NCBI RefSeq assembly: GCF_022808855.1
Contig: NZ_JAKZLF010000009.1
Location: forward strand, 1-64,000
Length of the DNA: 64,000 nucleotides
Source of the DNA: Anaeromyxobacter soli
GTDB lineage: Bacteria > Myxococcota > Myxococcia > Myxococcales > Anaeromyxobacteraceae
Reading direction: 5' to 3'
Shown here: positions 41,483-42,730 of the stretch, one piece after another
Position numbering within the stretch: the first letter of the stretch is position 1
How the letters are laid out: each line of letters starts with the position of its first letter
Translations under genes and position numbers: made by a program
Notes under the pieces: model-generated
What the model saw: the letters and a program-made list of their open reading frames with translations, nothing else
The model's database searches: none
Told to the model about the DNA's origin: nothing

Positions 41483-41932
41483 CTATGCAACGGCGTAGCG
41501 GACCAGCACCTCGGGGATCGCGACCGCGACCGCGCCATACAGCGGTCAGAGCCGCTTGAAGCCTGCTACGAGCACGGCGGCCTGCGAGTCGTCCACGCCT
41601 CCCAGCGTGAAGTCCATGGCGACGGAGTTGAGCGTCCTCACGTCGCTGCGCGGCTGCTTGGCTCGGTCAAGGACCCCGTGCATCTTCACGCCCACAGTCC
41701 GCAGCGGCATGTTTTCCTTCCGGGCAAGCGCCTGAATCAGTTCGACCCCGCAGGCCGCGACGGCGGAGAGCGAGACCTCTACGGGCGTCACCTCTTCGCC
41801 GGGCGCGCCGTTTATCACCGGGCCGTCGATGATGAAGTGGTGGTCCCGGATGCCGCACAAGACGCGGCCGAACACGTCGGTCGAGCGAGCCGTAACGTCG
41901 TACTCGCTCACCGCCTGCGCTGGAGTCGCCAT
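41483..41932 (-). CDS. OsmC-family protein with in-frame TGA at the second redox Cys
   Basis: 149 residues if TGA at 41548-41546 is read through; 128 residues if it stops. OsmC/Ohr proteins reduce organic peroxides with a pair of Cys. The first Cys is C61 in LSAVAACGVELIQALA. The second should lie in a CPLYG block; here the codon is TGA, and the frame continues as PLYGAVAVAIPEVLVRYAVA to a normal TAG (41485-41483). Codon 129 matches the distance seen in E. coli OsmC (Cys59, Cys125). Start ATG 41932 fits the family, but no ribosome-binding site is visible. Sec insertion or a nonsense mutation are both possible. Neighbouring genes are decayed, which favours caution. Confidence 0.75.
41516..41548 (-). 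promoter_or_regulatory. candidate bacterial SECIS element after the OsmC TGA
   Basis: On the minus strand, 14 nt after the TGA, GGTCGC (41531-41526) pairs perfectly with GCGATC (41521-41516; one G-U) around the loop GGTC (41525-41522). The first loop base is G and there are 20 nt between TGA and the loop. This fits the general bacterial SECIS model (stem, small apical loop with G first, 16-37 nt from UGA). GC-rich repeats form such hairpins easily, so it is only suggestive. Confidence 0.4.
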
Positions 41933-41969: not shown

Positions 41970-42131
41970 GTTCTTCCGGGTGGCCTCCTCGGCAGGAGTG
42001 CCGAGAAGATCGCGGTGATTGCGACTTGCGAGGCGAATGGAGTGAACCCCGTCGAGTACCTCGGCGACGTGCTCATACGCGTGCAGACCCACCCGGATTC
42101 GCGGATCGACGACCTGCTGCCGCACGACTGA
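41970..42131 (+). mobile_element. C-terminal remnant of an IS66 transposase (TnpC)
   Basis: The frame reads SAEKIAVIATCEANGVNPVE then YLGDVLIRVQTHPDSRIDDL followed by LPHD and a stop at 42129-42131. ATCEANGVNP..YL.DVL.RVQTHP is the characteristic end of IS66-family transposases. Everything before it is gone. It lies head-to-head with the OsmC gene and may have brought or destroyed its promoter. Confidence 0.75.
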
Positions 42132-42191
42132 ACGCCGCGACTCGAGCGCCTTCTTGAGCTCCGCGCGCTACGCCTTCAACTTCGCGATCAA

Positions 42192-42407
42192 TTGCCCATC
42201 ACGCTCGCGCCCGCGCTCGACCAGGCCCGCGAGGCCGCCGGCGACCGGGACGTCCGCATCGCGGGCGGATTCCGGAGCCGAACAGCACGGGCGAGAGAGG
42301 ACGTGAACGCCGGCCTGATCGACGAGTTCTCGCTCGCGCAGGATCGTTGCGCCGCGTCTTCTTCGCGGGCGCACGCGCTGGCGAACGACGGTTGCATCTA
42401 CAACTGA
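42192..42407 (+). pseudogene. fragment of a RibD-C/dihydrofolate-reductase-like protein (C-terminal half)
   Basis: ALDQAREAAGDRDVRIAGG and NAGLIDEFSLAQ match the second half of DHFR-like proteins that end ...AAAGDKDVRIGGG...AGLIDE. The reading then loses similarity. No start codon context. It lies upstream of its own N-terminal half, so the order is reversed. Confidence 0.5.
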
Positions 42408-42499
42408 GGTTGTAGGTACCACTTCGGCGTGCCGCAAGCCGATCTCCGCGACGCCCGCGCGATCCCGATTCGCTGCCGGCCGAACGATGACTCGAGCGG

Positions 42500-42653
42500 A
42501 ACATCTCCGCATGGTCGACCTCGGCGAGCAGGCGTGGCCGGAGGAGGCGCCGTTCCACACGCCGGTCTTCGTCGTGACGACGAGAAGCGTGACCCCTGGG
42601 AGCGGCCGGGCGGGACCACCTTCCACTTCGTCAAAGACGGCATCGGTCTTTGA
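42500..42653 (+). pseudogene. fragment of a RibD-C/dihydrofolate-reductase-like protein (middle part)
   Basis: EEAPFHTPVFVVTTR in one frame and PWERPGGTTFHFVKDGI in the next match the centre of the same family (PPFHTPVFVLTH...GGTTFHFVTDGI). A frameshift splits them. The segment ends exactly where the fragment at 42192 begins in the protein. Confidence 0.5.
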
Positions 42654-42730
42654 CAGGGACCCTGGCGATCGTGCCAGCGCCCGCACGTGCCGGCGCTACA
42701 CCGCGGCGCTTCCACCAGACTCGACGGTCG

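Follow-up and report, generated by a model that had tools for sequence, protein, structure and literature searches.

A gene on the minus strand of a 64,000-nucleotide stretch of Anaeromyxobacter soli DNA (hereafter the window) is predicted to encode an OsmC-fold protein with selenocysteine (Sec) at codon 129, a reading to which we give a probability of about 95%. The Sec reading draws on conservation of the TGA codon in homologs, alternation of TGA with Cys codons, a covarying hairpin downstream of the TGA, and the presence of the Sec machinery in the genome. The protein apparently represents a distinct, unlisted subfamily of OsmC-like selenoproteins. The features of the gene are as follows.

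41483..41932, minus strand: predicted OsmC-like selenoprotein gene, 149 codons through the TGA to a TAG stop (translation, Pfam, AlphaFold)
41750..41752, minus strand: codon 61, the first (classically peroxidatic) Cys, invariant (homolog alignments)
41546..41548, minus strand: TGA codon 129, predicted Sec, where OsmC/Ohr proteins have their second Cys (the classical resolving one)
41516..41531, minus strand: bSECIS hairpin GGUCGC-GGUC-GCGAUC (covariation; lost in Cys homologs)
41486..41545, minus strand: 20 conserved C-terminal codons past the TGA, PLYGAVAVAIPEVLVRYAVA (alignment with homologs)

Reading Frame and Fold

The OsmC-like frame begins with an ATG at 41932 and ends with a TAG at 41485-41483. 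It contains a single in-frame TGA, codon 129 (41548-41546), and continues for 20 more codons. With the TGA read through, the protein scores 28.2 bits against PF02566 (OsmC), above the gathering cut-off of 27.5. The AlphaFold model has a pLDDT of 95, and its best PDB matches are OsmC/Ohr proteins, with Z scores from 16.2 down to ~12. In this model, Cys61 is located on the central helix with Sec129 nearby, and Sec129 aligns with the resolving Cys of Ohr. Translation of the minus strand reproduces the coordinates, frame, codon-129 TGA, and TAG end given in the original prediction, and its distances from the TGA to the hairpin and loop are also correct. Its statements that Cys61 is kept and that the C-terminus beyond the TGA is well conserved are borne out by alignment with homologs; Cys61 is present in all 38 sequences (the window gene and 37 homologs).

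Homologs and Codon 129

A contig scan identified three relatives with 54-57% identity, one in a Gemmatimonas MAG and two in Chloroflexi MAGs, and each has TGA at the same codon. A profile search of 795 genomes (400 Chloroflexota and 395 Gemmatimonadota, phyla as given in the record titles) yielded 37 homologs, where codon 129 is TGA in 31 and Cys (TGC or TGT) in 6. Nothing else is found at this position. The in-frame UGA aligns with Cys in homologs, as expected of a bacterial selenoprotein. The TGA form is split between Chloroflexota (22 genes) and Gemmatimonadota (9 genes), and the tree contains several switches between Sec and Cys. Of the genomes carrying the TGA form, 31/31 score above the selA cut-off, and the single homolog genome that lacks selA has the Cys form. 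The Sec motif is UPLY/F/W, with one ULLF, across 32/32 Sec genes.

The genomic surroundings of the relatives differ. In one Chloroflexi relative (L034, 2380-5450), DUF1800 and DUF1501 genes precede the selenoprotein gene at spacings of ~10 nt, an operon-like arrangement. The neighborhood in the Gemmatimonas relative is different.

The SECIS Hairpin

The published bSECIS model places 16-37 nt between the UGA and the apical loop, with a G within the first two loop positions (PMC13188914). The window hairpin begins 14 nt past the TGA, and its apical loop begins 20 nt past the TGA with G first or second, so the hairpin fits the model. Across 31 distinct sequences, the hairpin covers codons +5 to +10 past the UGA, and the GU at its tip (41524-41523 in the window) is invariant.

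The helix is supported by covariation. At their third positions, codons +6 and +9 pair as CG in 25 sequences and TA in 6, and codons +7 and +8 as GC in 17, CG in 10, and AT in 4. Both pairs are thus Watson-Crick in 31/31 sequences, a result matched by 0 of 20000 shuffles, and they are clearly distinct from every other third-position pair tested. Taken as a whole, the helix has seven pairs with 100% of cells paired and 21 double-changed cells (0/500 shuffles), versus 29-72% of cells paired in slid-helix controls. The protein tree requires at least nine changes in the combined pair types; the covariation is therefore not a single inherited event. The hairpin is absent from all six Cys genes. Folding energy was set aside as support because it is not significant in the window sequence (z +0.78 for 42 nt and z -1.04 for the 21-nt core), and the window sequence alone is thus not decisive.

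Selenocysteine Machinery

The genome of the window's organism is 5.3 Mb and 100% complete. It encodes selB (307 bits), selA (538 bits), selD (393 bits, C44:22034-22960), and a tRNA-Sec (selC) with anticodon TCA (75.4 bits), and the organism is therefore equipped to decode UGA as Sec. selD is itself of the Sec type, with its own in-frame TGA at the catalytic position (GUACK). The original prediction had proposed a selenoprotein, to be checked by a search for selA to selD, by the state of codon 129 in homologs, and by a bSECIS search. These computational tests all favor Sec: all four genes are present, codon 129 is TGA or Cys, and the hairpin both fits the published model and covaries across homologs.

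Origin of the Window Copy

The window copy nests within a Gemmatimonadota clade with support of 99/93, and its nearest relative shares 65-66% identity. No close copy was found in 146 relatives, only weak partial matches. This placement, together with the weak matches, makes horizontal acquisition likely, with a Gemmatimonadota-like donor as the probable source. By codon position, the copy differs from its nearest relative at 0.24/0.18/0.47, almost the same values as those that separate two intact relatives; judged by these values, the gene is under purifying selection and not decaying. Of the sites with at least 85% conservation among relatives, only two differ in the window copy.

Upstream of the gene are short broken coding remnants (window ~41990-42660). 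One resembles what we take to be the C-terminus of an IS66-type transposase, and others presumably a reductase. A Pfam search of the remnants returned no match. They could trace the path of the proposed horizontal transfer.

Proposed Catalytic Cycle

SelB carrying Sec-tRNA would bind the hairpin 14 nt past UGA129, Sec would be inserted in place of termination, and translation would continue to the TAG. In the mature protein, Cys61 would react with a peroxide, organic or otherwise, and become oxidized, Sec129 would resolve the oxidized Cys61 to form a Cys61-Sec129 selenenylsulfide, and a cellular thiol reductant would regenerate the enzyme. By analogy, this cycle is the most likely one and is proposed because Sec129 aligns with the resolving Cys of Ohr, where peroxidatic Cys61 is oxidized and then resolved by Cys125 (PMC5962072). 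For the re-reduction of the Ohr disulfide, a lipoylated protein has been proposed as the reductant (PMC5962072). Profile alignments indicate that the catalytic Glu of Ohr, 10 residues before the peroxidatic Cys (Cp), is not conserved; the Glu is shifted by one, and the following residue, E52, is a near-invariant Glu. Since the Glu position is displaced, the Ohr mechanism of peroxide reduction cannot be taken for granted here. Of the Arg-Glu-Cys catalytic triad of Ohr, the Cys is retained. Arg23 is invariant in the family and is a candidate counterpart of Arg19 in Ohr.

A Second OsmC Gene in the Same Genome

A second OsmC gene is encoded elsewhere in the window's genome (C23:134101-134559, minus strand). 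Here the TGA is found at the first Cys (GGULLGTFGGALEAR), and Cys occupies the second position. The first-Cys TGA recurs in 14 relatives from the same taxonomic order. These relatives have a near-invariant hairpin ~26 nt downstream with GG in the loop. NCBIfam has a model for OsmC-related selenoproteins, NF041052 (OsmC_like_Se), with a cut-off of 95 bits; the second OsmC protein scores 15.8 bits, far below it. This gene is likely another unlisted selenoprotein subfamily, with the motif UxxG. At the 3' end of its frame, the stop found in relatives a few codons past the domain is missing and hundreds of codons remain open, which could reflect a frameshift, loss of the stop, or misassembly.

Alternative Explanations

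The original prediction carried its own counter-argument, that a nonsense mutation produced the TGA in an OsmC gene of a decaying region. Although broken pieces of coding sequence lie beside the gene at ~41990-42660 and a close copy is absent from the 146 relatives, 31 homologs in two other phyla share the TGA, the codon-position differences reflect purifying selection, and the window copy departs so little from conserved positions. With the TGA conserved across phyla and the gene under selection, this argument fails and the explanation is very improbable. Equally improbable is selenium-free decoding of the UGA, either by a near-cognate tRNA or as tryptophan. The base after the UGA is C in 31/31 Sec genes, and the UGA-C context is leaky, but the genome holds the full Sec machinery, TGA alternates with Cys at a catalytic position, and the covarying hairpin is lost in the Cys versions.

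Given Sec at codon 129, its role is less certain. Sec129, not Cys61, could be the attacking residue, which would reverse the roles that the two positions have in Ohr and in the known OsmC selenoprotein. Thiol peroxidases usually place Sec at the attacking position, and the catalytic Glu that lies near Cp in Ohr is displaced in this family. However, Cys61 is invariant and is located on the central helix where Ohr has its Cp, and the swap is considered unlikely. The broader picture is just as doubtful, i.e., a widespread OsmC subfamily that uses Sec at the resolving position as nucleophile, alongside a second OsmC protein in the same cell with Sec at the peroxidatic position. Sec129 as resolver is the role we favor, at slightly better than even odds.

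Comparison with Known Systems

The literature lists OsmC-like selenoproteins as one form, UxxT (PMC1088965, PMC2398784, PMC9312934, PMC13188914). The original prediction correctly placed such proteins in metagenomes (PMC1088965, PMC2398784); the metagenomic proteins, however, are UxxT proteins and belong to a different subfamily. The UxxT motif is not found in any of the 32 Sec genes. Against NF041052, the window protein scores 16.7 bits and the Chloroflexi relative L034 scores 33.0, versus the cut-off of 95. To judge from sequence, this model probably describes the UxxT family. When Thr was placed at +3 of the first Cys in a Cys homolog, the score rose from 89.5 to 93.7 (+4.2 bits), and a Thr at the same offset from the second Cys gave no gain. 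Since only the first-Cys Thr raised the score, Sec in the known UxxT form most likely occupies the first-Cys position. None of 195 genomes from the organism's own phylum passed the NF041052 cut-off, and no CxxT motif was found in Cys homologs near the cut-off.

The 2026 review of prokaryotic selenoproteins treats proteins that differ in Sec position or motif as distinct subfamilies, and by this rule the window protein counts as new. No other papers on an OsmC selenoprotein with Sec at the second Cys were found in the open-access papers searched. The finding adds a selenoprotein subfamily in Chloroflexota and Gemmatimonadota; these names do not occur in the 2026 review. Standard annotation would truncate such second-Cys genes. 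Moreover, with a second-position Sec, several switches between Sec and Cys, and a paralog in the same genome whose predicted Sec is at the first position, the contribution of Sec at each position is testable in one fold.

Ohr, e.g., that of X. fastidiosa, shares the fold and the positions of both active-site residues with the window protein. The two differ in that Sec replaces the resolving Cys and the position of the catalytic Glu is not kept; against the Ohr model TIGR03561, the window protein scores 12.2 bits and the L034 relative 33.5, versus a cut-off of 88.85. In the E. coli fdhF SECIS, the apical-loop G and U contact SelB (PMC8659212). The OsmC-gene hairpin resembles it as a short coding-region hairpin after the UGA with G and U in the apical loop. 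Unlike fdhF, no bulged U was identified in the stem of the OsmC-gene hairpin, and the loop-flanking pair covaries directly around the GU. Like the Sargasso Sea/GOS selenoprotein (UxxT), the window protein belongs to the OsmC family and has one predicted active-site Sec with a bSECIS element after the UGA. In contrast to that form, where Sec is most likely at the first Cys, its predicted Sec is at the second Cys within the motif UPLY.
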